Part shown: positions 1-63,411 of the stretch, piece by piece
Layout: every line of letters starts with the position of its first letter
Numbering within the stretch: position 1 is the first letter of the stretch
DNA from: Amphibalanus amphitrite
Taxonomy: Eukaryota > Arthropoda > Thecostraca > Balanomorpha > Balanidae
Length of the DNA stretch: 64,000 nt
Assembly: GCF_019059575.1 (NCBI RefSeq)
Contig: NW_024881567.1
Coordinates: 777,001-841,000 of the forward strand
Direction of reading: 5' to 3'
Notes under the pieces: generated by a model
Told to the model about the DNA's origin: nothing
Database searches by the model: none
What the model saw: only the letters and a program-made list of their open reading frames with translations
Made by a program: the position numbers and the translations under genes

Positions 1-896
1 TCAAAAGGGAGCTGGACAGGAAATTATCTAGAATGTAGTGTGTGGCTCCACGCGCAGTGCGCACACTCATTCAGCCACAGCCACAGTCTGTCGCCCGGCG
101 CCGCCCCCCCCCCCCCCCGGGCGCCAGGTCATGCATGTGACGTCACAGCGCCCCGGGCTACGGTCGCCCGGCGCTGGCCGGCGCTCACCGTCACCGGCCG
201 ACGCCGACTGATCATCGGCCGAACATAACTACGCCGCATAAGAGAAGGAGGTTATCATAATTGCATGGAAAACAAGGTGGCAAAGTCACCCCAGCTGACC
301 TCCATTTCACCTACTGACATTGCCACCCCCAATTATAAACAGAAGAAATCGATGAATGCATTTTCCTTTGATCACAATAGCATCATAGTCATGTGATAAT
401 CACGCAGTTAAAACATCCCAACCACAGCTGTTTTCAAACATGATTGTATGCAAGAAAGTTTGAACCTCTATAAATCCGCCGTTTTATATAGCTCAATTAA
501 ATGGAGCATAGTTGTTTACAATTTTATTGTTACTGAGCAAATGCATTCGTTTTTCAAAGAGTCAATAATTGTCTTTCATTTATGCAGCAAAAATAATGAC
601 TAGCGTTGCAAAATATCACTGTAGGTAGGCCACTTTAAAATATTTTCCAGAAAAGTGGCAAAGTCACCCAGCTAGGCAAAGTCGCCCCCGTTTACGGTAC
701 GGCTTTGATGACCTGAACTGACCTTGACCTTTGCAGATTGTGTCAATTATTTTCTCCAACGCGGTTTGGAGAAGGGGCAGTTTTTGGAACTCTGAATGGC
801 ATGTGTGTCATCAATAAAAGTGTGTAATTCCTGCAGACTGTTGGCAGTATTGGTGGATAGTGCCCACACTGATAGCGGTCGGCGCGCTGTTGGCAG
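1..896. other. non-coding flank, no gene recognised
   Basis: The first 240 bases are GC-rich with a long C tract near 105-119 and a CRE-like TGACGTCA near 138; no convincing exon or core promoter was found. From about 272 to 700 there are two direct copies of GTGGCAAAGTCACC. The segment closes with a TACGGTA end that resembles the terminal sequence of the repeat family at 15671 and 35752, so it may be a truncated copy. From 701 to 896 nothing is recognised. Confidence 0.4.
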
Positions 897-1020
897 GAAG
901 CGTCTGCGCCGAGCACGCCGTCACCAGCGGTGGCTGAGCGGCAGCCGCCGGCCGACCGGCTCACCGACGGCCCGGCCGGCGCGCCGCAGCCGCAGCCCTA
1001 CTCGGCTCCGGGTGGCACCA
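897..1020 (+). CDS. possible proline-rich linker exon of the masquerade-like gene
   Basis: One frame is open from 876 to 1020. It encodes a Pro/Ala-rich linker (residues such as PSTPSPAVAERQPPADRL and PQPQPYSAPGGT) and ends at a good donor, ACCA|GTGAGT, in phase 1, the phase used by the other linker exons of this gene. Possible acceptors are GTTGGCAG (end 896) and CTGATAG (end 875); neither has a strong pyrimidine tract. Base composition is clearly more GC-rich than the flanks. A neighbouring frame contains a hydrophobic stretch resembling a signal peptide (VPTLIAVGALLAG), but it lacks a Met and hits a stop at 935. The exon joins the next one in frame only if the alternative acceptor at 14740 or 14743 is used. 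It could also be non-coding GC-rich sequence. Confidence 0.3.
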
Positions 1021-1027
1021 GTGAGTG

Positions 1028-1079
1028 GCACACACACACACACACACACACGCACGCACGCACGCACGCACGCACGCAC
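1028..1079 (+). repeat. CA / CGCA microsatellite
   Basis: An alternating (CA)n run is followed by (CGCA)n. It begins directly after the putative splice donor at 1021 and leads into the minisatellite. Alternating purine-pyrimidine of this kind can adopt Z-DNA. Confidence 0.9.
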
Positions 1080-4000
1080 CAGGCCGGCACACTCCACAAT
1101 CCACACACACCAGGCCGGCACACTCTACACACACCAGGCCGGCACACTCTACACGCACCAGGCCGCCACAATCCGCACACACCAGGCCGGCACACTCCAC
1201 AATCCACACACACCAGGCCGGCACACACCACACACACACCAGGCCGGCACACACCACACACACACCAGGCCGGCACACTCCACACACACCAGGCCGGCAC
1301 ACACCACACACACACCAGGCCGGCACACACCACACACACACCAGGCCGGCACACTCTAAACACACCAGGCCGGCACAATCCGCACACACCAGGCCGGCAC
1401 ACTCCACACACACCAGGCCGGCACACACCACACACACACCAGGCCGGCACACACCACACACACACACCAGGCCGGCACACTCTAAACACACCAGGCCGGC
1501 ACACTCCGCCCACACCAGGCCGGCACACTCTACACACACCAGGCCGGCACACACCACACACACACCAGGCCGGCACACACCACACACACACCAGGCCGGC
1601 ACACTCTACACACACCAGGCCGGCACACTCCGCCCACACCAGGCCGGCACACTCCACACACACACCAGGCCGGCACACTCTAAACACACCAGGCCGGCAC
1701 AATCCGCACACACCAGGCCGGCACACTCCGCCCACACCAGGCCGGCACACTCTACACACACCAGGCCGGCACACACCACACACACACCAGGCCGGCACAC
1801 ACCACACACACACCAGGCCGGCACACTCTAAACACACCAGGCCGGCACAATCCGCACACACCAGGCCGGCACACTCCACACACACCAGGCCGGCACACAC
1901 CACACACACACCAGGCCGGCACACTCTAAACACACCAGGCCGGCACAATCCGCACACACCAGGCCGGCACACTCCACACACACCAGGCCGGCACACACCA
2001 CACACACACCAGGCCGGCACACACCACACACACACACCAGGCCGGCACACTCTAAACACACCAGGCCGGCACACTCCGCCCACACCAGGCCGGCACACTC
2101 TACACACACCAGGCCGGCACACACCACACACACACCAGGCCGGCACACACCACACACACACCAGGCCGGCACACTCTACACACACCAGGCCGGCACACAC
2201 CACACACACACCAGGCCGGCACACACCACACACACACCAGGCCGGCACACTCTAAACACACCAGGCCGGCACAATCCGCACACACCAGGCCGGCACACTC
2301 CGCCCACACCAGGCCGGCACACTCTACACACACCAGGCCGGCACACTCTAAACACACCAGGCCGGCACAATCCGCACACACCAGGCCGGCACACTCCACA
2401 CACACCAGGCCGGCACACACCACACACACACCAGGCCGGCACACTCTAAACACACCAGGCCGGCACAATCCGCACACACCAGGCCGGCACACTCCGCCCA
2501 CACCAGGCCGGCACACTCTACACACACCAGGCCGGCACACTCTAAACACACCAGGCCGGCACACTCCGCCCACACCAGGCCGGCACACACCACACACACA
2601 CCAGGCCGGCACACACCACACACACACCAGGCCGGCACACTCTAAACACACCAGGCCGGCACAATCCGCACACACCAGGCCGGCACACTCCACACACACC
2701 AGGCCGGCACACACCACACACACACCAGGCCGGCACACACCACACACACACCAGGCCGGCACACTCTAAACACACCAGGCCGGCACAATCCGCACACACC
2801 AGGCCGGCACACTCCACACACACCAGGCCGGCACACACCACACACACACCAGGCCGGCACACACCACACACACACCAGGCCGGCACACTCTAAACACACC
2901 AGGCCGGCACACTCCACACACACCAGGCCGGCACACTCTACACACACCAGGCCGGCACACACCACACACACACCAGGCCGGCACACACCACACACACACC
3001 AGGCCGGCACACTCCACAATCCACACACACCAGGCCGGCACACACCACACACACACCAGGCCGGCACACACCACACACACACACCAGGCCGGCACACTCT
3101 ACACACACCAGGCCGGCACATTCCGCCCACACCAGGCCGGCACACTCTACACACACCAGGCCGGCACACACCACACACACACCAGGCCGGCACACTCTAC
3201 ACACACACACCAGGCCGGCACACTCTACACACACCAGGCCGGCACATTCCGCCCACACCAGGCCGGCACACTACACACACCAGGCCGGCACATTCCGCCC
3301 ACACCAGGCCGGCACACTCTACACACACCAGGCCGGCACACACCACACACACACACCAGGCCGGCACACACCACACACACACCAGGCCGGCACATTCCGC
3401 CCACACCAGGCCGGCACACACCACACACACCAGGCCGGCACACACCACACACACACCAGGCCGGCACACACCACACACACACCAGGCCGGCACACTCTAA
3501 ACACACCAGGCCGGCACAATCCGCACACACCAGGCCGGCACACTCCACAATCCACACACACCAGGCCGGCACACACCACACACACACCAGGCCGGCACAC
3601 TCCACACACACCAGGCCGGCACACACCACACACACACCAGGCCGGCACACACCACACACACACCAGGCCGGCACACACCACACACACACACCAGGCCGGC
3701 ACACTCTACACACACCAGGCCGGCACACACCACACACACACCAGGCCGGCACACACCACACACACACCAGGCCGGCACACTCTAAACACACCAGGCCGGC
3801 ACACACCACACACACACCAGGCCGGCACACACCACACACACACCAGGCCGGCACACACCACACACACACCAGGCCGGCACACACCACACACACACCAGGC
3901 CGGCACACTCCACAATCCACACACACCAGGCCGGCACACACCACACACACACCAGGCCGGCACACACCACACACACACCAGGCCGGCACACACCACACAC

Positions 4001-5219
4001 ACACCAGGCCGGCACACTCCACAATCCACACACACCAGGCCGGCACACACCACACACACACCAGGCCGGCACACTCCACACACACCAGGCCGGCACACAC
4101 CACACACACACCAGGCCGGCACACACCACACACACACCAGGCCGGCACACTCCACACACACCAGGCCGGCACACACCACACACACACCAGGCCGGCACAC
4201 ACCACACACACACCAGGCCGGCACACACCACACACACACACCAGGCCGGCACACTCTACACACACCAGGCCGGCACACACCACACACACACCAGGCCGGC
4301 ACACACCACACACACACCAGGCCGGCACACTCTAAACACACCAGGCCGGCACACACCACACACACACCAGGCCGGCACACTCCACACACCAGGCCGGCAC
4401 ACACCACACACACACCAGGCCGGCACACTCCACACACACACCAGGCCGGCACACTCTAAACACACCAGGCCGGCACACACCACACACACACCAGGCCGGC
4501 ACACTCCACAATCCACACACACCAGGCCGGCACACACCACACACACACACCAGGCCGGCACACACCACACACACACACCAGGCCGGCACACACCACACAC
4601 ACACCAGGCCGGCACACACCACACACACACCAGGCCGGCACACTCCACACACACCAGGCCGGCACACTCCACACACACCAGGCCGGCACACACCACACAC
4701 ACACCAGGCCGGCACACACCACACACACACCAGGCCGGCACACTCCACACACACCAGGCCGGCACACACCACACACACACCAGGCCGGCACACACCACAC
4801 ACACACCAGGCCGGCACACACCACACACACACACCAGGCCGGCACACTCTACACACACCAGGCCGGCACACACCACACACACACCAGGCCGGCACACACC
4901 ACACACACACCAGGCCGGCACACTCTAAACACACCAGGCCGGCACACACCACACACACACCAGGCCGGCACACTCCACACACCAGGCCGGCACACACCAC
5001 ACACACACCAGGCCGGCACACTCCACAATCCACACACACCAGGCCGGCACACTCTACACACACCAGGCCGGCACACTCCACAATCCACACACACCAGGCC
5101 GGCACACTCTACACACACACCAGGCCGGCACACTCCACACACACACCAGGCCGGCACACTCCACACACACCAGGCCGGCACACTCCACACACACCAGGCC
5201 GGCACACTCCACACACACC
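1077..5219 (+). repeat. 4.1-kb CACCAGGCCGGCACA minisatellite
   Basis: A tandem array of roughly 22-27-bp units. Each has an invariant core CACCAGGCCGGCACA followed by a short variable spacer: CACCACACA, CTCCACACA, CTCTACACA, CTCTAAACA, ATCCGCACA, CTCCGCCCA or TTCCGCCCA. By length the array holds about 170 units. Spacer order is itself repeated: landmarks near 3702, 3778, 4252, 4328, 4845 and 4921 show higher-order blocks of about 550-593 bp. The strand is extremely C/A-rich and free of stops over long stretches, which produces many long spurious open frames on both strands. It ends in degenerate units near 5219. Confidence 0.97.
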
Positions 5220-5252
5220 AGACCGCAACCAATGGCAATCTAATCGGCTGAC

Positions 5253-5310
5253 CCAGTCCACACCCAGTCCACACTCAGTCCACACTCAGTCCACACTCAG
5301 TCCACACTCG
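5253..5310 (+). repeat. CAGTCCACACT short tandem repeat
   Basis: About five 10-11-bp units of CAGTCCACACT/CAGTCCACACC. It lies just after the large minisatellite and is distinct in sequence from it. Confidence 0.85.
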
Positions 5311-6263
5311 TCATCAAATTCAGGTTAGCTCATAGTTACCTTAGTGAAGATTCAAGTCATAAAAAACATTTGAACTGAAAAAAAAAACACCCGTCCCGTG
5401 GCTGCTTTGGTACAACGTTAGACTCCCGGTGCAAAGAGCTCGGACGCCAGTCCCTCCGGCGCTCAATATGCATATGAGACTCCTGACTGGGATGGTCTGC
5501 GGTTGGTAGGAGCAGCCGCAGCCATTTGAAGTCAGTTGCGTAGTGGGACCGACCGTGTCTGGCTTTGATGGGCACTCTTTAACTTAACCCTCGCCCGTAT
5601 TGGTGTTTTGCCAGTCGCAAACGTATAAGGGGGGAGGTTCCGTTGGACCCCCCTTGCCGTTTGGCCCATGATCGGGCTTGAGCTTCGCGAAAAAAAAAAC
5701 GAACGTGCTGCCGATGACGAGAGGAAGCCGATAATACCCAATTTTAAGAGCCTAGGTCCTTGGTTTACCTTCCAGGTCAGGTCAATGACCCAATAGCCGG
5801 GAAAATCGGGACCTGTTGGAACGTCGCAAAGTGTGGCTGCTATGGGATTTTTCGGAGTGCTGATCACGAGTATCATGTTAGTTTTGATCACACATGATGT
5901 CTTCATGCATGTAGGTCAGGTCAGGTCAACCAGTAGGGATCCTGCCGGGTAATCGTAGTACGTGTCAACCGCCTCTGACAGCTTCGTAACATGTTACGAG
6001 GGCACCAAAACTACTACGTAAATGTTCAAATGGTTCCTGTTCTGTGCGAACAAGGTGTATGTCAAAGCGATAGCGCAAGAGTAACAGCGTATAAAAAAGG
6101 AATGTGTTACACCGATGAAATCTCCGAAGGTTGGGACTTTTCAATTTAGACAATCACTTTTCTTTAGAATTGTGATTTTCTATTGAAAATTCCAACCTGA
6201 GCTACCTCTCTAGGGAGACATTTGCGTTTCAGCTGCGACTTTGGACATCTTGATACCCTCAAA

Positions 6264-17690: not shown

Positions 17691-17923
17691 TTGAATTGTG
17701 GTCATTTGGGATGTAAGGCTTGAAAAAGACATTTTGTAGAAACACATGTGTAGCCAAAATCGGTCACGCCAGATATGATTGTTTAAACGCCATGCAATAG
17801 GAAATTAAATTGTGATCACTAAATTGTTTTTGCAAAGACTGTTACATGTCCTTTATATTCAATCTTTTCCTTTTTCGTAGGACATGACTAGATAAGTGAA
17901 ACTTTTTTAAATATAAAGGTACT

Positions 17924-17990
17924 GTATTATAGAAAGCCTTCGCAAACGCGTTTCGAATATATCATCTTCAGTGCTAGCTTCCCATAATAC
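17924..17990 (-). ncRNA. hammerhead-ribozyme-like motif, PLE1 minus copy
   Basis: Exact reverse-complement counterpart of 23058-23124. The core CTGAAGA and GAA lie within a long closing stem I. It sits in the 3' untranslated part of the minus-strand element, about 75-140 bp downstream of the stop codon. Confidence 0.6.
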
Positions 17991-18060
17991 AAAAAGAAAA
18001 TGGTACAAAAGTTCACAACACATCGCAAATACACACGCTGCAATTTTTTCTCTCACAATA

Positions 18061-21000
18061 TCACGGGTAGAATGTTTTTATATACTTCTGAAATGCAAGA
18101 CCGCAAATCGCCCCTCCTAAGGTGTAAAAGCCCCCCTTATGGTTCGTACATGACACACTTTGAATTAATGCCGACTCAAGAATTTTTCTGTGCGATCTCT
18201 TCAGACCTGATTTCACCGCACTGGCTTTATCCCACTTAGGTAGGTGACCCTCTGTTTCGGCATGTAACGTAATTGAGTTAGACAAATTATGATTTATCAA
18301 ATCACGCTTGTGTTCAGTTACTCTGGTTTTAAGCCCTCTGTAAGTTTCACCGATATATACTTTTGGGCAGCCCCCACAAGGAATTTGGTAGACTACGCTG
18401 TTCGCCCTTCGCCGTCCTTCAGTTCCTCCCTTAATCATGTCACCTATTTTTGTTCCAGATTTTTCTATCAGTCTAACACCTGCTTGATTTAACCCTTTTG
18501 CTAAGCATTGCACTTGTTCAGAGTGTGGCACAACAATGACTCGTTTGCTCTTCTGTTGTCTTTCTTCATTTTGGTTCCTTGTATTTGCTTGTTCTTTCTT
18601 CTTTCTTATGCGTTTGGCACTGTTCTTGCATCTAATGAGAAAAGCTCTTGGGTATTTGAGCCGTTCAAATACCTCGAAAATGTGTTTGATCTCATCTGCG
18701 ATGTACTCTTCGCTGCAAATACGGTATGCGCGCAGGAAAAAGCCAATGACGACCCCTGACTTTGTTCTCATGCTATGTGCAGAATAAAAATGAATATAAT
18801 CCTCCTTACTTGTTGGCTTTCTATAGACCGCAAACTTAACACTAACATCTTCCCTGATAATCTTGACGTCTAAGAAGTTAAGTGTTTGGTCTCTTTCTTC
18901 TTCTAGTGTAAATTGAATGCTCCCATGTACTTGATTCAGCTCTTGTAGCTTCACGTTTAGATCCATTTCCTCTGGCGCAATGACCAAAATGTCATCCACA
19001 TAATGATACCATTTTGTATCATTTCCCATCACCTTGCTGAATTCCTCCTCCTCTAACATTTCCATAAATAGGCACGCAGCAACTGCGCTGAGAGGTGAGC
19101 CCATGGCAAGCCCCTCGTTTTGTGCATATTCTTCTTTGTTGAAGATGAACGGATGAAAGTTGAGGCAGAGCTTTACTAAAGACAGATAATCCTCTTTTGG
19201 TAATGGTAATGAATCTTCAGTTAGGCCGTTCAGCGCTTTTTCAAACGCCTTTATAGCGCCGTCGATAGGGACGTTTGTAAATAGCGCCTTGACGTCAAAG
19301 CTCGCTAGTTTTTTCCCGTTAAATTGCGTTTGTTTTAACCGCTCAATGAGGTCCCCTGAATTCCTTAAGTGAGCGTCACTTAAGCTTCCCAGAGTCATTG
19401 TCAACGGTTTGGCTAGTATCTTAGCTAACCTATGGGGCGCACTTGCAATGCCTGACGTAATAGGGCGCATCGGTATGCCCTGTTTGTGAATCTTTGGGAG
19501 CCCTCTCATTTTAGGTGGCAAAGGATCTTGTTCCAATGTGTAAAGTAGTTGTTTTCCTTGTTCAGACTTTTTAAGAATTTTTCGAGCCTCTTTATTGAAT
19601 TTTTCTCCTTCAGCTTTTGCATAACCTGTCTTTTTCTTTTCATATAGGGGAGAGTGGGGCACATTCGTGCATGGGGCACATTCGTTTTCAGCAGTTTATG
19701 GGAACACGAGTGACTGCACGAGCTCAAGGTAAATTATGGAAATATGTCTATCATTGCCGCCCTTCGTTCACCGTAGAAGACAACACTGTACCTGCTGTTA
19801 TGCTTGATAAAAACGCAAATTTGTAATATTCGTGAGCTTTCCAAACTTTTCTCATATCATCCATTTTCGTGATCCTGACTCGGAAATGTGGTTCAGCTTT
19901 TCAAAATTGGGAATGAAGAAGCCCACTCTATTCACGGAACTGCTGCAAACTTGTTTGTTGAAAAAGTGTCATTTTTTCAAAAAGAAATTTTGAAATATAT
20001 TACTAATAACGTTGTGGGGCAGGTTCGTGTACGCACTGCCTGGGGGCACATTCGTGCATATTTTTTTTTAGTTTTGCGATTTATGACTTTATCTGTAGTA
20101 GGTTTCTCTAATGACGCTCGCCTGACTCAGTCTCGACTGCTTGCGACGTCGTGACGAGCAATTCACGCAAACTTGGCGAGGTCACGGAGGCCGGCAGTTG
20201 GCACATTCTTGTTGGCCAGCCCATTCTTTCTACATTTGTTGTGCAATGCATTCTTGTCGAAAGGAATCAGGTGAAATAACCCCCTGCCAATTTCCTTTGG
20301 TAAATTTCTGGTAATGCCCGGTAATTTCTCGAATTTTGCCGGGTGAACGGAAGTGCCCCATCTCTTGAACGAATGTGCCCCATAGGTGGGGCAGTTTCGT
20401 GCAAATGTTCAGAGTTAATAAAAGTCATTTTTTCTAATGGAAGCAATAATTTTATAGGATAACTTTTAAAGAGGAAAACTATCTGCAATAGTTCCTTTCC
20501 ATACTACAATCAACAATTTTGCCATTGCACTAACCAAAGAACAGATATATGGGTTTATCCATTTTTTGCACGAATGTGCCCCACTCTCCCCTACCTTATC
20601 CTTCAAAAGTTCATTCATTTTCTCTAAGTAATCATTCTTGTCCATGACGATGATACTCCCACCTTTGTCTGCTGAAGTAATGATAATAGAATCGTCCTTG
20701 GCTAGTGAATCTAGTGCCTCATGATATCTTCTTGGCAGGCTGCTGTTCTCTTTGTCAGCCAAAATCTTGCAACATGTCACTACTCCCTGAACAAAGCCCT
20801 TGTCAACATTAGTATCGTTATTTTTGTAATTTTTAGCAACGTGTTCAACTAATGACACTTGGTCTTTGCCCGAGTCGAACTTTAAACCATATGAAAGTGC
20901 TTCTTTTTCGCTCGCTGATAGGTTTCTTGACGACAAATTCGTAACTATTTCATTTTTCACGGCTTCACCCCACATGCTCCTGTCACAGAGATTATTCAGC

Positions 21001-21195
21001 TTCCGTTGTAGCCGAGCCTGCTGGTCAATGTTCATTTTGTCTAGTTCCTGTTTGTGTGCCTGCGATAGACCGACACCTTTGCATTCATCTCTTTGTAAAA
21101 TGATTTCATTTCTTAGAGCCTCACACGCTTCTTCCAGGAAAACTTGCGCGGACTTGGTAAATGGTACATCTTTACTTCGGAGATGCTGTGGGGCC
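18061..21195 (-). pseudogene. PLE1 minus copy: RT + GIY-YIG ORF split by a MITE
   Basis: The reading frame runs from about 21195 to 20594 (N-terminal region, coiled-coil-like KNEIILQRDE and DEIT-type segments, ending NELLKDKV). It is broken by the element at 19647-20591 and resumes at 19646 with YEKKKTGYAKAEGEK through to the stop at 18061. The second part has RT motifs SFDVKALFTNV, GLAMGSPLS and YVDD, then the GIY-YIG endonuclease with VVYQIPC and VYIGET. Compared with the plus copy there are a few substitutions (for example FTNV/FTDV) and no internal stops. The N-terminus lacks a clear Met because the copy stops at the head-to-head junction. Confidence 0.85.
19647..20591. mobile_element. 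945-bp TA-type MITE inside PLE1
   Basis: Perfect inverted ends of at least 25 bp begin GGGGAGAGTGGGGCACATTC. The TA target is duplicated at 19645-19646 and 20592-20593. The uninterrupted sequence (CATATACCTTATCC) survives in the plus-strand PLE copy, so the insertion boundaries are exact. GGGGCACATTCGTGCA is repeated internally (near 19673 and 20044). Non-coding; probably mobilised by a Tc1/mariner-type transposase. Confidence 0.92.
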
Positions 21196-21197
21196 GA

Positions 21198-22987
21198 CCT
21201 TTGTTCAGGGAGTAGTGACATGTTGCAAGATTTTGGCTGACAAAGAGAACAGCAGCCTGCCAAGAAGATATCATGAGGCACTAGATTCACTAGCCAAGGA
21301 CGATTCTATTATCATTACTTCAGCAGACAAAGGTGGGGGTATCATCGTCATGGACAAGAATGATTACTTAGAGAAAATGAATGAACTTTTGAAGGATAAG
21401 GTATATGAAAAGAAAAAGACAGGTTATGCAAAAGCTGAAGGAGAAAAATTCAATAAAGAGGCTCGAAAAATTCTTAAAAAGTCTGAACAAGGAAAACAAC
21501 TACTTTACAAATTGGAACAAGATCCTTTGCCACCTAAAATGAGAGGGCTCCCAAAGATTCACAAACAGGGCATACCGATGCGCCCTATTACGTCAGGCAT
21601 TGCAAGTGCGCCCCATAGGTTAGCTAAGATACTAGCCAAACCGTTGACAATGACTCTGGGAAGCTTAAGTGACGCTCACTTAAGGAATTCAGGGGACCTC
21701 ATTGAGCGGTTAAAACAAACGCAATTTAACGGGAAAAAACTAGCGAGCTTTGACGTCAAGGCGCTATTTACAGACGTCCCTATCGACGGCGCTATAAAGG
21801 CGATTGAAAAAGCGCTGAACGGCCTAACTGAAGATTCATTACCATTACCAAAAGAGGATTATCTGTCTTTAGTAAAGCTCTGCCTCAACTTTCATCCGTT
21901 CATCTTCAACAAAGAAGAATATGCACAAAACGAGGGGCTTGCCATGGGCTCACCTCTCAGCGCAGTTGCTGCGTGCCTATTTATGGAAATGTTAGAGGAG
22001 GAGGAATTCAGCAAGGTGATGGGAAATGATACAAAATGGTATCGTTATGTGGATGACATTTTGGTCATTGCGCCAGAGGAAATGGATCTAAACGTGAAGC
22101 TACAAGAGCTGAATCAAGTACATGGGAGCATTCAATTTACACTAGAAGAAGAAAGAGACCAAACACTTAACTTCTTAGACGTCAAGATTATCAGGGAAGA
22201 TGTTAGTGTAAAGTTTGCGGTCTATAGAAAGCCAACAAGTAAGGAGGATTATATTCATTTTTATTCTGCACATAGCATGAGAACAAAGTCAGGGGTCGTC
22301 ATTGGCTTTTTCCTGCGCGCATACCGTATTTGCAGCGAAGAGTACATCGCAGATGAGATCAAACACATTTTCGAGGTATTTGAACGGCTCAAATACCCAA
22401 GAGCTTTTCTCATTAGATGCAAGAACAGTGCCAAACGCATAAGAAAGAAGAAAGAACAAGCAAATACAAGGAACCAAAATGAAGAAAGACAACAGAAGAG
22501 CAAACGAGTCATTGTTGTGCCACACTCTGAACAAGTGCAATGCTTAGCAAAAGGGTTAAATCAAGCAGGTGTTAGGCTGATAGAAAAATCTGGAACAAAA
22601 ATAGGTGACATGATTAAGGGAGGAACTGAAGGACGGCGAAGGGCGAACAGCGTAGTCTACCAAATTCCTTGTGGGGGCTGCCCAAAAGTATATATCGGTG
22701 AAACTTACAGAGGGCTTAAAACCAGAGTAACTGAACACAAGCGTGATTTGATAAATCATAATTTGTCTAACTCAATTACGTTACATGCCGAAACAGAGGG
22801 TCACCTACCTAAGTGGGATAAAGCCAGTGCGGTGAAATCAGGTCTGAAGAGATCGCACAGAAAAATTCTTGAGTCCGCATTAATTCAAAGTGTGTCATGT
22901 ACGAACCATAAGGGGGGCTTTTACACCTTAGGAGGGGCGATTTGCGGTCTTGCATTCCAGAAGTATATAAAAACATTCTACCCGTGA
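21198..22987 (+). CDS. PLE1 plus copy: reverse transcriptase with GIY-YIG endonuclease, 5'-truncated
   Basis: Open for about 596 codons to the TGA at 22985. Visible RT motifs are A (SFDVKALFTDVP, about 195 codons after the frame's first possible start at 21161), B (GLAMGSPLSAVAA) and the catalytic YVDD (YRYVDDILVI, near 22047). A basic region KKKEQANTRNQNEERQQKS follows, then the endonuclease VVYQIPCGGCPKVYIGETYRG with the downstream Arg and EH residues, placing it in the EN(+) Penelope-like class. It acts on RNA templates to integrate its own copy. The upstream ATG/GTG at 21161 lies in the inverted copy, so the N-terminus is chimeric. The open frame suggests recent activity. Confidence 0.92.
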
Positions 22988-23057
22988 TATTGTGAGAGAA
23001 AAAATTGCAGCGTGTGTATTTGCGATGTGTTGTGAACTTTTGTACCATTTTCTTTTT

Positions 23058-23124
23058 GTATTATGGGAAGCTAGCACTGAAGATGATATATTCGAAACGC
23101 GTTTGCGAAGGCTTTCTATAATAC
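23058..23124 (+). ncRNA. hammerhead-ribozyme-like motif, PLE1 plus copy
   Basis: Stem I pairs GTATTAT (23058-23064) with ATAATAC (23118-23124), GGAAGC with GCTTTC, and GCA with TGC, interrupted by small internal loops. The core CTGAAGA is at 23077-23083, followed by a short weak stem II (GATATATTC), then GAA and a self-complementary ACGCGT that could form a dimeric stem III. The predicted cleavage base is T, before TGCGAAGG. An extra base follows CTGAAGA. Penelope-like elements are known to carry such minimal hammerheads with tiny stem III. Confidence 0.65.
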
Positions 23125-23164
23125 AGTACCTTTATATTTAAAAAAGTTTCACTTATCTAGTCAT

Positions 23165-28937: not shown

Positions 28938-30726
28938 GCACACTCAGAGAAATATTTACCCTAAAAATATGGGTATTTCACGAGTACCAAATCGGTACTA
29001 TATTTACGGGTCCTTTAACGCCGAGAAAACGTTTATATCTACTCAGTCAGTGTTAGACTACCTAAACTGATTGTATCACATGACCTGCTTTATTGTATAC
29101 ATACCTGCTATTCTTAGCTATCTTTACCTAAAAAATCCGGGTTTTTCACGAGTACCAAATCGGCACTAGTTTTACGGGTTATCCTACCTCCAGAAAACGA
29201 GTATCAATATCCTTCATTGTTTCGCATGAACTATTATTACGTACAAATACCAGTGATTCTAGGGTATTACTAGCCACAAAATCCGGGTATTTTTGGAGTA
29301 CCAAATCGGTACTACATTTACGGGTTATCCTACGCCGAGAAAACAGGTAGCTCAACCTTTTTGCGTCAAAATACCGAATTAATTTGTGTCACATGACCTT
29401 CTCACACGCATACGTACCGAATTTGTTTGTGTCACATAACCTGCTCACACGTATACGTACCACTACCAGTGATTCTTTGGAATTGTTACCTTTAGAGCCT
29501 TAAACTTATCCGAAAGTTATAAGGTGCTTTAACACCATGCTTTATTTGTGCTACACTTGTCGCAGTTTGCTATAAATAGAACAAAACAATGATATGTAAA
29601 ACGGAGTTCGCTTGTTTATTGGGTTCCAACGAGATGGACAGAACCGGATGAAGATCATCGATTTAATTAGGAAACATGTCATGACAAACAAATAATCAGA
29701 TTTTTCGCACGATGTGGACGCAGTCCCTTCCCGCCTACGGCTGTCGTCAGCTGGCGGTCAACCGACCGGTGAGCATTGCCCCGTCCCGTAATGCAAGGTC
29801 TATACTCCCATTCGTACCTGTAAACCGCGTACGACACTCCACTTTTATGGCGCAATGCGCGATATCCGACGGCCCTGGCAGTTAGCTTGTTCGGTCGTCG
29901 ATCCCCATGTTTGTCGGCCGGTTCAGGTTGTCCTGACGCTGGCCGACACTCAGCGTTGCAGTCAGCCAGGATCTGGCCTGGCCTCTGGATCCCAGTGCTG
30001 TTCCTTGACCGCGTTTCTTGACATCCCAGCCCGGTGCTGTTTCTTGTTGATTTGAATGCTTGGTGCCCTTGCACAACACGATCCACCACCACACTCGCCC
30101 GGGAAAGAAAGTCACGTAGCTCACTTCCACAATACACCGCGTGAAACGCGAATAGCACTCGCCGTGCGGCTCCCAGCCTCTTCACACACCCACCACGCCG
30201 GCAACGGCGGTTCAAACTGGCTCATACTGAAAGCGTGCGCGCCAAACACAAAACGCGGAACGATGATTGGTTGAGAGGAACACCCTTCTGCGCATGCGCG
30301 ACCTAGGCCACGCCCCCTGTTAAAATTACTCACAAAAGGTAAATCCACCTTTAAAAAATAAGGAGTCAGAAAACCACATTTAAGTACTTATACACCCTTA
30401 CGAGTTGATGCATGTTACAGGTACCTGTTTTTCAATAACAAGTAGTAGAAAAACATGCTGGTAGAGTAGCCCTATACCACCGATTCTGGTTTGTTAGGTA
30501 GAGGTACCGTCTCTTCTGGGTAATGGTACCCGAATCTGCATGGTACTGTAAACCCATATCAGGTACATTTGCTACAATGTGTGTAAAAAGAACCATAGGT
30601 GTACAGGGACCCAAAATAAAAGGTGTATAACTATTTCTGTCCGAGTTTTAATATCCGGAGAAATCGGGATACCGGTACCCATAAGTGTAAAATTACCCGT
30701 AGAGGGGTAAATTTTTCTCTGTGTGC
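28938..30726. mobile_element. 1.8-kb element with CACACAGAGAAA-type inverted ends
   Basis: The left end CACACTCAGAGAAATATTTA and right end TAAATTTTTCTCTGTGTG are imperfect inverted repeats. Just inside the left end a segment of about 70 bp (TTTCACGAGTACCAAATCGG ... TTTACGGGT ... CGAGAAAAC) is repeated three times, starting near 28975, 29141 and 29288. The GC-rich right half has long but unrecognised open frames on the minus strand. No transposase was recognised and no TSD found. Confidence 0.6.
30245..30312. promoter_or_regulatory. possible GC-rich promoter: CCAAT plus NRF-1-like site
   Basis: GATTGGTTG (inverted CCAAT, about 30265) is followed by TGCGCATGCGC (about 30291), a strong match to the palindromic NRF-1 site. 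The surrounding segment is locally rich in CpG, unlike the AT-rich flanks. It lies inside the 28938-30726 element. No transcript or initiator can be assigned from sequence alone. Confidence 0.25.
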
Positions 30727-30738
30727 AGTATCGTTAAC

Positions 30739-30750
30739 AACATTTATATT
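30739..30750. repeat. 12-bp target duplication of PLE2, left
   Basis: AACATTTATATT, repeated exactly at 35201-35212, brackets the second Penelope-like insertion and defines its borders. Confidence 0.85.
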
Positions 30751-30832
30751 CTCTTAAGGACATGATGTGGAGTTTGTTAATGTAATAGGTAAGTGAATAA
30801 GGACTTTACTCCACAAGAAATCGTTCGGGTCG
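30751..30832 (-). repeat. PLE2 pseudo-LTR, 3' copy
   Basis: Eighty-two bases identical to 33995-34076, comprising the 5' leader, the ATG and the first few codons of the ORF. Its upstream boundary coincides with the predicted hammerhead cleavage site. Confidence 0.88.
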
Positions 30833-30868
30833 GAGCTTTCGAATTGTATTACAAAACTTCGTCAGCGA
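30830..30868 (-). ncRNA. hammerhead-like core, PLE2 main copy
   Basis: On the minus strand: TCG, core CTGACGA (30865-30859), an imperfect stem II with two U-U mismatches, GAA, a palindromic AGCT as minimal stem III, cleavage base C (30833), then CGA pairing with the TCG. Stem I beyond three pairs is not obvious. Downstream of the predicted cut the sequence is exactly the element's 5' end. Confidence 0.5.
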
Positions 30869-31379
30869 GTCGTAATCGGGTTCGAGGGGTATCGGTCGCA
30901 AAATTCAGGACAGTTCGCAGTCGGTAGACAGTGGCATGACACAGATAGTAAAATACATGAAAAGCACGTGACATCCTATGCTAGAACTATTTAACATTTA
31001 TTTAATAAAGAAAAACTAATAGCACTGTTGTACAACTCCTAAACATAAGGTGACTAAATATGAAAGCTTTCAGAAAAGTAATAAAGTGTAATAAATACCT
31101 GCATACCTTAATAAGTATACAAAGGCAATATAAGGAGAGCAAAAGGAAAAAGCTGTATAAAAAAGCACCTTCACACGACATGGACCACAATGAAGGGGGG
31201 GGGGGTGATGAAATAAAAACAATGTGAATATGTGCTCAATGTAAAATACAGTCAAAAGGCATAGAAAGCCTTAACTAACAACATTAAAAGCAAAGTACAA
31301 AGTATGGTAGAAAAGTCATATAAAGTTGCCGTATCAAAGGGGGGGGGGTATAAGACTATAAAAGGTTAAAAAACACGAC

Positions 31380-34007
31380 TTATTGGCGGCACGCACTGCG
31401 GATAATAGGTAACCAGCGATCCTGTAACAAAGCACCTGAGTTTCTGTTCAAATTGGCATCATTTGGCGACACTAACACAGTCTCGCGTCGTCCTACCGTT
31501 CTGATATAGGCAGATTCCAAAAGGAGTCGCATCTGGTGGTGGGCGGCACGGTCGAGGATCTTGGCATCATCAAAACGAGGCGTGCACTGCCGATGGGTGT
31601 TGAATGCTGAGGCGTTGGCTCTGGAGCTCCTCGAACCAGACCAGCAGTCTCGGTGCTCTCTGACTCTCGTTCCCAGCTCCCTGTCCGTCTCGCCGATGTA
31701 GATGACCGGATCACCGTCGACCTTGCAGGAACACTCTATTTTGTAGACCACATTGCTCTCCTGGTGCTTCGGTAGCTTGTGCTTGGTCTTACTGCACAGA
31801 ACCGCTCCAAGTGTCTGAGTTGGTTTGGAGACGAGTGAGACGCCGATCTTGTTTGCTGCTTTTTTCAGTTGGTAAAAGCAAGCACCGGCGAAGGGCACAG
31901 ATATTCTAACCGGCTGCTGACTGGGGCTGGTGTCTGGTGGAGCGGGCAAGGCCCGAGCTTTCAGACGGAGGTCTTCGTTGGTCTTGTGAATGGTGTCGTT
32001 GATGAATGAAGTGGGGTAGCCGTACTGATGAAATTTCCGGCGAATGATGTCCATTTCTCTCTGACGATCTTTTACGCTCGTGCAGTATCTGCTGGCGCGT
32101 ATACAGTCTGATCTGATGGCCGATCGAAGGTATCTTGTCTCAGTGTAGGAGTTGAAGGATGGAACTTGATTTGTAGAACACGCTTTTCTGTACACTTTTG
32201 TCTTATAGCTGTCTTCCATTCTGCTGATCATGATGTCCAAATAAGGGAGTTGTCTGTCTTCTTCTGTCTCTGTGGTGACTTTGATGTTCGGATCTTTGCT
32301 GTTCAGCTGCATCACCCACTCTGTGATGACGTCATCACTGCCTTCAAACAGGACAAGGTAGTCGTCGGCATATCTGCAGAAGCCATGGACTTGGCCTCCA
32401 CAAGCGAGAGCCACTCGCTCCAGGTCACTTTCCCAGTGGCCCATGTAGAGGTCAGCGACCACAGGCGAGTAGCTCTTCCCCATGGCCAGGCCAGTAGTTT
32501 GTTTGAACCATCTCTCTCGGTCCCCGTCTCGAACCACTGCGTGGCAGTTCTTGATGGACAGGTCCAAGAGGTCGGCGATAGCTTCTGGCTTCAGACAGGT
32601 GACGTCATACAGAGCTTCTCTGTGTTCTAGAAGCATGCCTTTGATGAGTGGAATGGCTTTCTGCGTCGGGATGGATGGAAACATCGCTTCCACGTCTAGG
32701 GATACCATGCGGCATCTGCTTGCTGTGTGCTGCATGCTGTTCAGCATCTCTAGCACTTGGAGCGGAGAACTGATGGAATGTGGTGGTCTTGGTAACACTT
32801 TCAAGCAGGTTGTCAGATGTTTTGTCAGCTCATAATCTACGCCGCGGTGGGCTGGGCAGATCGGTCGAAGTTTGAGACTGGAGATCCAGTGGAGCCTTTC
32901 GGCCTCTGTTGTTGGAGGCCCTGTGTACTTGTGGGTCTTCACTAGTCCATAGAAAGGGCCGCTCCGCCCGTGGGTCTTTGAGAGCTGGCGGTAGAGTTTA
33001 TAAGCTTCTTCGTTGTTCTGTTTGAGCTCTAAATCGCGTCGTTTTCCTCGAACAGGGGGACCTGCTAACGCTGTAAGAAGGTGGTCGTTGAACTTCCCTG
33101 CAAAAACTTCAGCTGGGTCACTTGTAACCTCTTCATAAACTGGTGACTGAAGCGATCGCAGCACAGCAGCAGTGTAGTCCTCCTTTTCGATCACTACCAA
33201 GGCTTTTGCTTTGTCGGCAGGGACGATGACTCTGGTTTCATCCTTGGCCAGTGATCTCAGAGGTCGTGAGATGGCTTGTGGCGGTTTAGGATGTTTCTCC
33301 TTGTCAGCACGGGCCAGTATGGTTTCTGCTTTGTTTAGAAAAGTGGTAATGTCGTCACCACTCAGTCCCAGCTGTTCTGCTTTCCTGCTGGCAACTTCGG
33401 AAGCCAGCTGAGCTTTCAAAGCTAGCTCCAAAATGGGTGGTTTGTTCGGAGCTATGGAGAACTTGGCACCCAGCTGGAGGACATTTTTCTCTTCTAAGGT
33501 CAGCGGCTGGCTTGTCAGATTGATGACAGTTGTGGTTGATTCACCCGTTTGTCTAGGGTGTTTACTCCAGAAAGTCAGGCCTCCATTTTCAAAGAGCAGA
33601 TGGCTGAGTTTCTTGGCCTTAACAGCATCACTTTTCCTCAAAGCATCGTTGTACAGAGCTTCACCTCTACTCTCCAGCACGGACATAGCTGCTTCAGAAG
33701 CTCCTCGTCTTCTGAGGCTGTTCTTGATGCCTTGAAGTCGTGCCTTGACGCGGTGAGTCTCTGAGCGTGCTTCATTGAACGCCATTCGTAAGCGACTTTC
33801 TTCAGCGTTTTTCTTCCATTTTCTCTCACGTTCAGTTCTTGTATTGATGGTCAGTCTCAGCCCACGAGGGATTAGTTGTTGATCCCTGCAGTCACGTAAA
33901 AAGGTAGAATTAGATTGGAATCTGGCTAACTTACACATGAGATGTGAGTAGAGGTTAGCCATTGACTTGGCAGACCGTCCTAGGTCAGAAAATTCTCTTA
34001 AGGACAT
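31380..34007 (-). CDS. PLE2 reverse transcriptase with GIY-YIG endonuclease (875 aa, intact)
   Basis: A full ORF from ATG (34005-34007) to the TAA, with no interruptions. A charged N-terminal region of about 300 residues is followed by the RT domain: motif A SLDVEAMFPSIP (about residue 436), GLAMGKSYSPVVADLYMG (about 510) and catalytic YADD in CRYADDYLVLF (about 550). A basic linker and a C-terminal GIY-YIG endonuclease follow, with VVYKIECSCK and VIYIGETDREL (about 750-775), the downstream REH, and a Cys pair near its start. The length and order are those of EN(+) Penelope-like elements. The sequence is clearly different from PLE1, so it is another family. The start is supported by the pseudo-LTR, whose copy stops shortly after this ATG. 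Confidence 0.95.
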   Translation of the reverse strand: MSLREFSDLGRSAKSMANLYSHLMCKLARFQSNSTFLRDCRDQQLIPRGLRLTINTRTERERKWKKNAEESRLRMAFNEARSETHRVKARLQGIKNSLRRRGASEAAMSVLESRGEALYNDALRKSDAVKAKKLSHLLFENGGLTFWSKHPRQTGESTTTVINLTSQPLTLEEKNVLQLGAKFSIAPNKPPILELALKAQLASEVASRKAEQLGLSGDDITTFLNKAETILARADKEKHPKPPQAISRPLRSLAKDETRVIVPADKAKALVVIEKEDYTAAVLRSLQSPVYEEVTSDPAEVFAGKFNDHLLTALAGPPVRGKRRDLELKQNNEEAYKLYRQLSKTHGRSGPFYGLVKTHKYTGPPTTEAERLHWISSLKLRPICPAHRGVDYELTKHLTTCLKVLPRPPHSISSPLQVLEMLNSMQHTASRCRMVSLDVEAMFPSIPTQKAIPLIKGMLLEHREALYDVTCLKPEAIADLLDLSIKNCHAVVRDGDRERWFKQTTGLAMGKSYSPVVADLYMGHWESDLERVALACGGQVHGFCRYADDYLVLFEGSDDVITEWVMQLNSKDPNIKVTTETEEDRQLPYLDIMISRMEDSYKTKVYRKACSTNQVPSFNSYTETRYLRSAIRSDCIRASRYCTSVKDRQREMDIIRRKFHQYGYPTSFINDTIHKTNEDLRLKARALPAPPDTSPSQQPVRISVPFAGACFYQLKKAANKIGVSLVSKPTQTLGAVLCSKTKHKLPKHQESNVVYKIECSCKVDGDPVIYIGETDRELGTRVREHRDCWSGSRSSRANASAFNTHRQCTPRFDDAKILDRAAHHQMRLLLESAYIRTVGRRETVLVSPNDANLNRNSGALLQDRWLPIIRSACRQ

Positions 34008-34076
34008 GATGTGGAGTTTGTTAATGTAATAGGTAAGTGAATAAGGACTTTACTCCACAAGAAATCGTTCGGGTCG
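33995..34076 (-). repeat. PLE2 pseudo-LTR, 5' copy
   Basis: The first 82 bases of the main copy, repeated at 30751-30832. It contains the leader and the start codon. Confidence 0.88.
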
Positions 34077-34607
34077 GTTAGAATATCTGTGCCCCTCGCC
34101 GGTGCTTGCTTTTACCAACTGAAAAAAGCAGCAAACAAGATCGGCGTCTCACTCGTCTCCAAACCAACTCAGACACTTGGAGCGGTTCTGTGCAGTAAGA
34201 CCAAGCACAAGCTACCGAAGCACCAGGAGAGCAATGTGGTCTACAAAATAGAGTGTTCCTGCAAGGTCGACGGTGATCCGGTCATCTACATCGGCGAGAC
34301 GGACAGGGAGCTGGGAACGAGAGTCAGAGAGCACCGAGACTGCTGGTCTGGTTCGAGGAGCTCCAGAGCCAACGCCTCAGCATTCAACACCCATCGGCAG
34401 TGCACGCCTCGTTTTGATGATGCCAAGATCCTCGACCGTGCCGCCCACCACCAGATGCGACTCCTTTTGGAATCTGCCTATATCAGAACGGTAGGACGAC
34501 GCGAGACTGTGTTAGTGTCGCCAAATGATGCCAATTTGAACAGAAACTCAGGTGCTTTGTTACAGGATCGCTGGTTACCTATTATCCGCAGTGCGTGCCG
34601 CCAATAA
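34077..34607 (+). pseudogene. PLE2 inverted partial copy: C-terminal GIY-YIG fragment
   Basis: About 173 codons identical or nearly identical to the C-terminus of the main ORF: the last part of the linker, VVYKIECSCKVDGDPVIYIG and the end QDRWLPIIRSACRQ. It lacks RT and cannot encode a functional element. It results from 5' truncation of a copy integrated in opposite orientation to the main copy. Compared with the main copy, only isolated changes are visible (CAC/CTC near 34093). Confidence 0.92.
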
Positions 34608-35116
34608 GTCGTGTTTTTTAACCTTTTATAGTCTTATACCCCCCCCCTTTGATACGGCAACTTTATATGACTTTTCTACCATACTTTGTACTTTGCTTTT
34701 AATGTTGTTAGTTAAGGCTTTCTATGCCTTTTGACTGTATTTTACATTGAGCACATATTCACATTGTTTTTATTTCATCACCCCCCCCCCTTCATTGTGG
34801 TCCATGTCGTGTGAAGGTGCTTTTTTATACAGCTTTTTCCTTTTGCTCTCCTTATATTGCCTTTGTATACTTATTAAGGTATGCAGGTATTTATTACACT
34901 TTATTACCTTTCTGAAAGCTTTCATATTTAGTCACCTTATGTTTAGGAGTTGTACAACAGTGCTATTAGTTTTTCTTTATTAAATAAATGTTAAATAGTT
35001 CTAGCATAGGATGTCACGTGCTTTTCATGTATTTTACTATCTGTGTCATGCCACTGTCTACCGACTGCGAACTGTCCTGAATTTTGCGACCGATACCCCT
35101 CGAACCCGATTACGAC

Positions 35117-35155
35117 TCGCTGACGAAGTTTTGTAATACAATTCGAAAGCTCCGA
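35117..35155 (+). ncRNA. hammerhead-like core, PLE2 inverted copy
   Basis: Plus-strand counterpart of 30830-30868: TCG, CTGACGA (35120-35126), a stem II with AAT loop, GAA (35145-35147), AGCT, cleavage base C (35152), CGA. Followed by CCCGAACGATTTC, the start of the pseudo-LTR sequence. Confidence 0.5.
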
Positions 35156-35593
35156 CCCGAACGATTTCTTGTGGAGTAAAGTCCTTATTCACTTACCTAT
35201 AACATTTATATTTTCATGAAAAATGTGCTTAGCCTTTAAGTAAAAAGGTGGAAACGATAGATCCAGTGGCGAAGCTATTAGAACTTCAACTTTGTTAAGC
35301 TGCAGGTAGGGGTCCTTTTTGAGCAACTAAAATTGTGTTTTTCTTTGTTTCGTATTTTATGCCAAATTTCTTTCAGAACTTTTCGAAATTTTCAAAAATG
35401 TTATTCAGAGCAATCACTGTTTAATTCCACGTCAGCCTAAGCAAAAATGACGAAAAAAAAACATCAAACGGTTTTCATTTTACAGCGATTTTACTAAACC
35501 ACTACCTACCTTACTGTCTCAAATATCTTCTTAAAATATCTTCTCAAATATCTTCTCAAATATCTTCTATCTTCTGGTTTAAAACGTATCTGT

Positions 35594-35636
35594 AATTATC
35601 GCTGACGAAGCTCCAGGAGCGAAATATTCGATAATT
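35594..35636 (+). ncRNA. hammerhead ribozyme motif of a third, decayed PLE
   Basis: A compact and well-paired candidate: stem I AATTATCG (35594-35601) with CGATAATT (35629-35636), eight perfect pairs; core CTGACGA; stem II GCTC CAG GAGC; GAA; minimal palindromic stem III ATAT; cleavage base T at 35628. One extra A separates the core from stem II, as in the other two. No PLE protein sequence survives next to it. Confidence 0.65.
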
Positions 35637-35757
35637 TTAAATATAACTTTTTGGCTCCTATTTCTGATTTATATTATGAGGCTACTGGTTATTCTTATAT
35701 CAATTATATTGTCTCAAATATCCCCACTGTCTCAAATAGCCCCACTTTACGGTACCT

Positions 35758-61739: not shown

Positions 61740-63371
61740 TCACGCCGCTTCCAGCCCTTTCACATAGTTTAAAACGTGTCCTCTAAAAGTGTAGAAACTA
61801 TCGCTAAAAACATCAGCGGGACTTCTAGTTAAAAACACGTTCATGGCCTTCGGTAGTCGGCGCAGAAAACCATCCCCGACGGTCCGTACGCGCCAGGGAA
61901 GCTCGGCGAAGAGCCGCTGTGAGCGGGTTGATCGCGGCGGCACATGGAGCGGAAATCTACCAAGGAGGTTAGAAGAACGGATTTTACCGGCCAGGATATT
62001 CCTCAGGAAGAGCAGGTCGTGTTGGTTTCTACGGACAGACAGTGATGTAATACCAAAATGATGCAGAAGAGAAGGATAGGACAGAGAGGAACATGGCGAG
62101 GACGTGTGGCTATTCAACCACAACAAGAATTTGTGCTGCACACGATCAACCCGCTCTGTGTGGGATTTGGCCGCTCCCGCCCAGACCACGCAACCGTATT
62201 CCAAAATTGAGCGAACATTGGCATAGTAAGTAACGAGTAACGTATGTTTGTTAAATTTCGATCTCTTAGTCCCGGCCTGAAAGGTTCTGATCATCAGGCC
62301 TAGGGCCCTGTTTGCCTGGCATACAATCCGGGACACGTGCGCCGAAAATGACAGCTTGCTGTCAATTGTGACGCCAAGATCTTTGATCTCGTCTACGCTC
62401 TCCAGAACAGCGCTGCCAATACGGTAGGTGGTCCGAACGGGAGCGCGCCGCAGAGTCACACTGAATGCTTTACATTTGGCTGGGTTTAGAGACAGACCCC
62501 ATGTGGCCGACCAGGAGCTCAGCCGGTCGATGTCCGTCTGCAAAGTAAGAGCATCCTGGCGCGTCGTGATTTTCCTGAAGATTTTGGCATCGTCTGCGTA
62601 GAGTAAACATTCTGAGTCTAGATCGGAAGGGAGGTCATTGATAAAAATAGAAAATAGGATCGGAGCAATCAATGACCCCTCTGGATTTCCCGAAATGACA
62701 CTAGTCCATTCCGACGTTTTGCCGTTCAGTGTGACTCTTTGGCGCCTATCGGAGAGGTACGAGACAAACCACATGAGAGCTGAGCCGTGGACGTGGAACG
62801 AATTTTTTAGTTTGTGGATCAAGTAACCATGATTTACACTTTGAAAGGCCGCTGTGAAGTCGGTGTATATCGTGTCTGTCTGGTATCCCTCCGATATGGC
62901 CTCCCACGCCGAGGTCAGAAAGACGGCCAAGTTGCTGGTACATGATCTGCCCGGCACAAAGCCGTGCTGCTCGTTGCAGAGTGCCGGTGCCACGTGCCGG
63001 TAAAGCTGGTCATAAACCACTTTTTCTAAAATCTTTGCGAAGAGAGGCAGCAAGCTAACACTTCTGTAGTTTTCGGCCGACTTTTTGTCTCCTTTTTTGA
63101 ATATCGGCACTATGTTAGCGCGTTTCCAGCGTTCGGGGAAAACTCCAGAGGCGACTGACATGGAACAGATCTTTGTAAGCGGAACAACAAGTTCCTCGCG
63201 GCATTCTAAGATTATTCTGGCGCTTATGTTATCTGGCCCACATGCTTTGTTCTGAGTCAGTTGATTAAGAGCCGCACGGATTGATGATTCGGTGACATAA
63301 AAGTGAGACAGTGAGTCAATGGGATATGACTTAGCATGTGGGATAATGCTGGGAGACGGCTTTGATATCAA
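61740..63371 (-). CDS. LINE reverse transcriptase (truncated ORF2)
   Basis: 543 codons, no internal stop. RT landmarks in order: KACGPDNISARI, SVSLLPLFAKILEKVVYDQL, HGFVPGRSC, TDFTAAFQSVNHGYL (about residue 175), GNPEGSLIAPILFSIFINDL, catalytic LLYADDAKIF (about 257), LSLNPAKCKAF and the thumb region LGVTIDSKLSF. A C-terminal region with ILEYGCVVWAG and RVQHKFL follows, as in jockey/CR1-type LINEs. The usual QGS/T is NPEGS here. The N-terminal endonuclease is missing. The frame is open to its stop TGA at 61740-61742, so the truncation is the main defect. Confidence 0.92.
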   Translation of the reverse strand: MISKPSPSIIPHAKSYPIDSLSHFYVTESSIRAALNQLTQNKACGPDNISARIILECREELVVPLTKICSMSVASGVFPERWKRANIVPIFKKGDKKSAENYRSVSLLPLFAKILEKVVYDQLYRHVAPALCNEQHGFVPGRSCTSNLAVFLTSAWEAISEGYQTDTIYTDFTAAFQSVNHGYLIHKLKNSFHVHGSALMWFVSYLSDRRQRVTLNGKTSEWTSVISGNPEGSLIAPILFSIFINDLPSDLDSECLLYADDAKIFRKITTRQDALTLQTDIDRLSSWSATWGLSLNPAKCKAFSVTLRRAPVRTTYRIGSAVLESVDEIKDLGVTIDSKLSFSAHVSRIVCQANRALGLMIRTFQAGTKRSKFNKHTLLVTYYANVRSILEYGCVVWAGAAKSHTERVDRVQHKFLLWLNSHTSSPCSSLSYPSLLHHFGITSLSVRRNQHDLLFLRNILAGKIRSSNLLGRFPLHVPPRSTRSQRLFAELPWRVRTVGDGFLRRLPKAMNVFLTRSPADVFSDSFYTFRGHVLNYVKGLEAA

Positions 63372-63411
63372 AGAGCGATATCAAAGAGCGATATCTATCA
63401 CAGTGACGAAC

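Follow-up and report, generated by a model that had tools for sequence, protein, structure and literature searches.

Genomic arm ends of a Penelope-like element in Amphibalanus amphitrite suggest insertion from uncut and, less often, hammerhead-cut RNA

The R2 and L1Tc retrotransposons carry a 5' HDV-like self-cleaving ribozyme that is thought to define the 5' end of their RNA. The element described here, PLE2, has a different predicted ribozyme and belongs to a different element class, the Penelope-like elements (PLEs), whose minimal type I hammerheads were reportedly described by Cervera and De la Pena in 2014 and by Lunse et al. in 2017. That PLEs carry hammerheads, a point on which the original prediction for this locus drew, is established (PMC6155905, PMC7761336, PMC7229834). 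As far as the excerpts of these accounts go, such hammerheads resemble that of PLE2 in their reduced stem III, in their location within the pseudo-LTR and in the expectation that they act as dimers (PMC7761336, PMC7229834, PMC6155905). Their role is called unknown in reviews, and a mystery in the text of PMC7761336. Penelope hammerheads are thus already known; unlike those reviewed, PLE2 appears to come with a genomic trace of cleaved templates, and this trace is the point of interest here.

The Penelope elements of the rotifer Adineta vaga are like PLE2 in layout, with inverted pseudo-LTR arms joined head-to-head, a 31-bp tail on one arm and target duplications of ~8-10 bp; unlike in PLE2, no hammerhead is named in the excerpted portion of that report, where the mechanism considered is self-priming with an antisense RNA as template (PMC3846280). 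Poseidon_Ac (PAc), an element of the Penelope/Poseidon clade from Anolis carolinensis, shares with PLE2 its pseudo-LTRs, a hammerhead close to where the ORF begins and an AT-rich target (PMC11167929). According to the available sections of Frangieh et al. 2024 (PMC11167929), reverse transcription of PAc starts in vitro at two internal sites, which explain a 30-40 bp 'tail', and both DNA strands are cut and extended, a pattern that PLE2 resembles. The same sections state that hammerhead mutants of PAc insert normally in vitro, cutting not being needed, that the PAc hammerhead cuts only with protein present, and that no RNA-seq reads ended at the hammerhead cut. The position of the cut differs between the two elements. 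In PAc it lies 26 bp inside the ORF, with no RNA ends seen there, whereas in PLE2 it precedes the ORF by ~70 nt and coincides with the end of some insertions (PMC11167929, in the sections available).

The DNA analysed is a stretch of 64,000 nt, hereafter the window, from the forward strand of the A. amphitrite assembly (GCF_019059575.1, NW_024881567.1:777,001-841,000). PLE2 has the minus strand as its element strand and begins CGACCCGAACG; the coordinates of its parts are collected in Table 1. The 82-bp direct repeat on which the original prediction was built is exact, and the second arm is an inverted repeat of the element's 3' third. Because AACATTTATATT is present on both outer sides of the arm pair, PLE2 here is a single insertion with a 12-bp target duplication, made up of a full-length arm and a truncated inverted arm. 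As had been proposed, the 5' end of the main arm coincides with the predicted cut, but the microhomology at the junction amounts to 3 nt (CGG) and not to 1, so that this end can be placed only to within ~3 nt.

A single ORF of 889 aa, open between stop codons over 31380-34049, is located between the 82-bp copies. It contains a reverse transcriptase domain (RVT_1, 39 bits, cut-off 29.6, E 9e-10) and, at its C-terminus, a weak Pfam match to GIY-YIG (14.8-15.0 bits, E 0.03-0.04) that falls below the cut-off of 22.6; a GIY-YIG-like YIGE stretch was also seen. A sequence search of the PDB gave no relative at E 0.001. PLE2 shows the pseudo-LTR, inverted arms, optional 3' tail and target duplication by which PLEs are recognized. 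Searching the 807-Mb genome with the N-terminal region returned 5 matches, the window copy at 100% and the other four at 73%, and the window copy was the only high-identity copy found with this region.

Table 1. Coordinates and strands of PLE2 features in the window, with the evidence for each
Feature	Position	Strand	Evidence
Target-site duplication, left copy (AACATTTATATT)	30739..30750	.	exact match to 35201-35212
Target-site duplication, right copy (AACATTTATATT)	35201..35212	.	exact match to 30739-30750
PLE2 left arm, full length, with 3' 'tail'	30751..34076	-	self-comparison and genome copies
Pseudo-LTR 82-bp piece, 5' copy; 5' end at predicted hammerhead cut	33995..34076	-	identical to 30751-30832
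Pseudo-LTR 82-bp piece, 3' copy, downstream of predicted cut	30751..30832	-	identical to 33995-34076
Hammerhead-like motif of minimal type, with its predicted cut at 30833/30832	30833..30880	-	descriptor match; no Rfam match
Upstream cluster zone, half of other copies' arm 5' ends	30898..30912	-	28/56 ends
PLE2 ORF	31380..34007	-	RVT_1 E 9e-10; GIY-YIG 14.8 bits, under cut-off 22.6
5'-to-5' junction of PLE2 arms, 3 nt shared (CGG)	34074..34077	.	read from sequence
Right arm, 5'-truncated in endonuclease region, without tail	34077..35200	+	99.6% match to 31912-30779
Second hammerhead-like motif, PLE2 right arm; predicted cut between 35152 and 35153	35120..35152	+	descriptor match

The hammerhead-like core that had been noticed beside the 3' copy of the repeat was recovered with a descriptor consisting of CTGANGA, 6-30 nt, GAAA, 0-8 nt, UH and a stem I of at least 3 bp. 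This core, CTGACGA...GAAAGCTC (written out, CTGACGA...GAA-AGCT-C), spans 30865 to 30833 and ends directly before CGACCC, placing the predicted cut where it had been expected. The descriptor matched 5 times in the window, compared to a mean of 0.27 over 100 simulated 64-kb sequences (first-order Markov); two PLEs account for four of the matches, each close to the 3' end of an arm, and the fifth is at 35602-35628 on the plus strand. The minimal type I core (CUGANGA, GAAA and UH, with stem I joining both sides) was found in PLE2, in a second PLE (PLE1) and in a third repeat, and a more distant PLE2 relative, family D (L010-L013), has the same core as PLE2. Stem III is self-complementary in all versions seen (AGCU, AGCGCU, ACGCGU and AUAU), as would be expected of minimal hammerheads acting as dimers.

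Covariance models, proposed as a check, gave no support: at gathering score no Rfam family matched anywhere in the window, and no hammerhead matched at the PLE2 site (30700-31000) up to E 10. Minimum-energy folds of PLE2 monomers and dimers likewise did not form the hammerhead. All hammerhead versions have an extra nucleotide ahead of stem II, which counts against them, and subfamily B (~92% identical to the window copy in the hammerhead region) has just 2 bp of stem I beside the core.

PLE1, at 17884-23164 of the window, likewise has two inverted arms, and these are 99.5% identical along 1763 bp. Its hammerhead-like motifs (17971-17945, minus; 23077-23103, plus) are each ~60 nt before the 3' end of the arm, and their stem III is ACGCGU.

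Copies in the same 807-Mb genome served as the test set, and 93 loci, some of them overlapping, were examined. A pattern made of the 25 nt that follow the cut, with up to 3 mismatches, occurs at 364 places in the genome, 100 of which were listed. Anchored extension yielded 99 arms, and setting aside the 21 that extend upstream beyond -100 left 78; merging like flanks reduced these to 56, a count that is approximate because the merging rule also joined some facing palindrome arms. Ends beyond ~+3 are under-sampled, since one search and one pattern started at +1.

Half of the de-duplicated 5' ends (28/56) are 65-79 nt upstream of the cut, and the templates of these arms therefore kept an uncut hammerhead. 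This upstream cluster probably corresponds to the RNA 5' end or transcription start. One end is further up, at -83, and 22 are scattered from -62 to +4. Among the scattered ends, that of L031, at -51, probably belongs to the upstream cluster, displaced by a small duplication. Ends near the cut but off it (-3, -5, -6 and +4; -1 in family D, at L011; +2 in C188) count against the use of cut RNA. The remaining 5 of the 56 are at the cut and represent 6 arms from four insertions including the window, the two arms of C783 having been merged.

Eleven loci (L044, L046, L048, L049, L060, L068, L075, L076, L084, L086 and L090) have one common PLE junction at -71, with …GCTACAT before ATTTTGCG, embedded in a longer stretch that all of them share. 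This junction is a single PLE insertion carried by another repeat.

Among the loci examined, cut-site ends are thus found in three insertions other than that of the window. In C783 both arms start at the predicted cut, with 2 nt of shared sequence at the junction, and the palindrome GGGTCGACCC stands between 11-nt repeats (GCTTGAAACGG). In C90, too, the cut is the exact start of both arms, which are separated by 10 nt of filler and share no bases, and in C15 it is the start of one arm. Numbered from the cut, the window arm ends at 0, owing to its shared bases, and C783, C90 (twice) and C15 end at +1. The expectation of a common 5' end was borne out in these insertions but not at four other loci with the 5' half of a related element (~71-73% identity), where the 5' end of that arm is not at the cut base. 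In family D, the element continues upstream past the hammerhead in L010 and L012, the main arms of L011 and L013 start at about -39 and -27, respectively, and it is the facing arm of L011 that starts at -1.

Exact anchors were also counted genome-wide. A base other than C precedes CGACCC at 9 places. Five of these carry a point mutation in an otherwise intact motif, three are arms already described (C15 and the two of C783), and the last is C267, whose upstream part could not be read. At 5 places CGACCC is preceded by a C that has no T ahead of it, namely the window, C193:394869, C193:406416, C266 and C1397; C193:394869 (L093) is a copy that was not cut and in which some bases are altered. Two loci, C783 and C188 (+2 and +9), have facing arms whose anchors are 6-36 nt apart; for a distance of 37-67 nt there is only C578, where both arms start beyond the cut.

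The 2 nt at the cut hold 5 de-duplicated ends, and the remaining 67 positions of the interval -64 to +4 hold 22; the Poisson P for this excess is 6e-4 when ends are counted and 5e-3 when insertions are. Leaving out the window, which raised the hypothesis, 3 insertions remain and the insertion-level P is ~0.03 by arithmetic from the same count. A peak of 5' ends at the cut is therefore likely, though not certain, and it suggests that self-cut RNA was the inserted template in a minority of insertions. The earlier proposal that the integrated template was cleaved RNA holds to this extent, with C783, C90 and C15 starting at the same point, and does not extend to the larger number of insertions, whose ends are upstream.

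The cut-site ends might instead be ordinary 5' truncations, or joins at short microhomologies, in which the hammerhead is not involved. Scattered ends are numerous (22/56), the cut-site ends come from only 4 insertions, and nucleotides are shared at the junctions of the window (3) and C783 (2), all of which favours this explanation. It does not fit the junction of C90, where filler and no microhomology separates two arms that both begin exactly at the cut, nor the presence of a second such pair in C783. Among 22 facing pairs read by hand, 2 are of this cut/cut type, compared to 0.23 expected under random pairing (P 0.008), and we consider truncation rather unlikely, without thinking it negligible. 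Both arms are in the upstream cluster in 10 of the 22 pairs, and no pair combines a cut end with an upstream end (2.9 expected, P 0.015). The two ends agree within 3 nt in 10 of the 22 pairs, where 4.0 would be expected (P 5e-4). Because facing arms agree and mixed pairs are absent, both arms of one insertion seem to derive from templates of one kind.

RNA beginning at the cut base could also arise by a process other than ribozyme cleavage, such as a second transcription start or a protein nuclease. The cluster at -79 to -65 shows that other RNA ends are recorded in the same way, and ribozyme activity here is predicted from sequence alone; such a process would leave unexplained, however, why the ends coincide with the very bond at which the hammerhead is predicted to cut, and we regard it as improbable. 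If folded stem I had blocked the reverse transcriptase, synthesis would be expected to stop before entering the stem, on its 3' side, and not at its first nucleotide. We infer that ribozyme cleavage made the cut-site ends. It is very unlikely that the four insertions merely inherited their 5' end from one old cut-site copy multiplied in larger repeats, since, although such multiplication does occur (one junction at -71 in 11 loci and one at -28 common to 6), the flanks of the four differ and the target duplications of the window and C783 are clear and different, that of C90 being approximate.

The 3' ends of the arms bear on the origin of the pseudo-LTR. Both 3' ends were readable in 18 of the 22 facing pairs, and in 17 of these 18 one arm ends 69-82 nt past the cut and the other 42-53 nt past it; L047 is the exception (58/48). 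The difference is the tail known from earlier work on PLEs. The original prediction had attributed the 82-bp repeat to read-through of a tandem template, and random read-through was rejected as its source because the 3' ends cluster at two points. By analogy with the Anolis element, the length of the repeat fits internal initiation ~80 and ~50 nt past the cut, with no need for random read-through, and reverse transcription probably began internally in this way at the 3' end of the 3' copy. Each DNA strand seems to use a different one of the two initiation sites.

On balance we think it probable that PLE2 inserts by reverse transcription on two strands, and that the genome records both uncut templates, which are commoner, and hammerhead-cut ones. 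The two target strands would be cut 12 bp apart, and reverse transcription would start on each of them. Synthesis would begin inside the RNA, ~82 nt past the cut point for the left arm and ~49 nt past it for the right, and head toward the RNA 5' end. The left arm would pass an uncut downstream hammerhead, copy the whole unit, and run off where the hammerhead of the upstream unit had cut, whereas synthesis of the right arm would stop early, in the endonuclease region, after which the two cDNA ends would be joined 5'-to-5'. In the window template the downstream hammerhead must have been uncut. Once copied, it would be held in an RNA-DNA hybrid and could not fold, while the upstream hammerhead would still be free to do so. 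Genome-wide, two kinds of template would be in use, uncut RNA beginning ~73 nt upstream of the cut and, more rarely, hammerhead-cut RNA.

A more general reading, which we put forward only tentatively and would not ourselves count on, is that PLE insertions record the state of their template, with both arms made from one RNA or one kind of RNA, either uncut (beginning ~73 nt upstream) or cut. The hammerhead would then be a switch on what is inserted. If so, a cut just upstream of the initiation site would give 82-nt stubs, and a cut one unit further up would give a unit-length copy whose 5' end lacks the pseudo-LTR's upstream portion.

The PLE2 counts agree with the Anolis work, in its available sections, on uncut RNA as the main template, and seem to add that cut RNA is used as well (PMC11167929). 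That work, the sole in vitro study found, reports that cutting is not needed and that no cut ends were seen in RNA (PMC11167929, in the sections available). Cut-site ends, present on both arms in two insertions, would be evidence from a living genome for the use of cleaved RNA. Among the titles and abstracts listed in the literature searched, there was no report of PLE 5' ends at a hammerhead cut. Counting 5' ends would make the role of PLE hammerheads testable in any PLE-rich genome.

The third repeat (~35577-35710) has a hammerhead-like motif at 35602-35628 (+) in which stem I comprises 8 bp or more and stem II 4 bp. Compared to the Hammerhead_HH9 model it scored 14.3 bits (gathering 52, E 0.43), which is sub-threshold. 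Genome-wide, no case was found in this family of both arms at the cut, nor of a single arm in which the base preceding the cut differs from T; both results, resting on exact copies, are weak negatives. A family whose hammerhead is better than that of PLE2 thus gave no cut-site ends, which counts against the use of cut RNA.

With 40 of 176 candidates scored, the genome contains at least 52 matches to the third repeat, many of them as facing inverted pairs. Among the matches listed, the starting point is 35589, which is 40 nt upstream of the cut, in 25 of 52 and 35577 in 22. Elsewhere in the window, 800-5330 is a long tandem repeat that is open in several frames on both strands, with HTHTRPAHTT-like translations, and a 546-aa open frame at 61740-63380 (-) resembles, by eye, a non-LTR reverse transcriptase.
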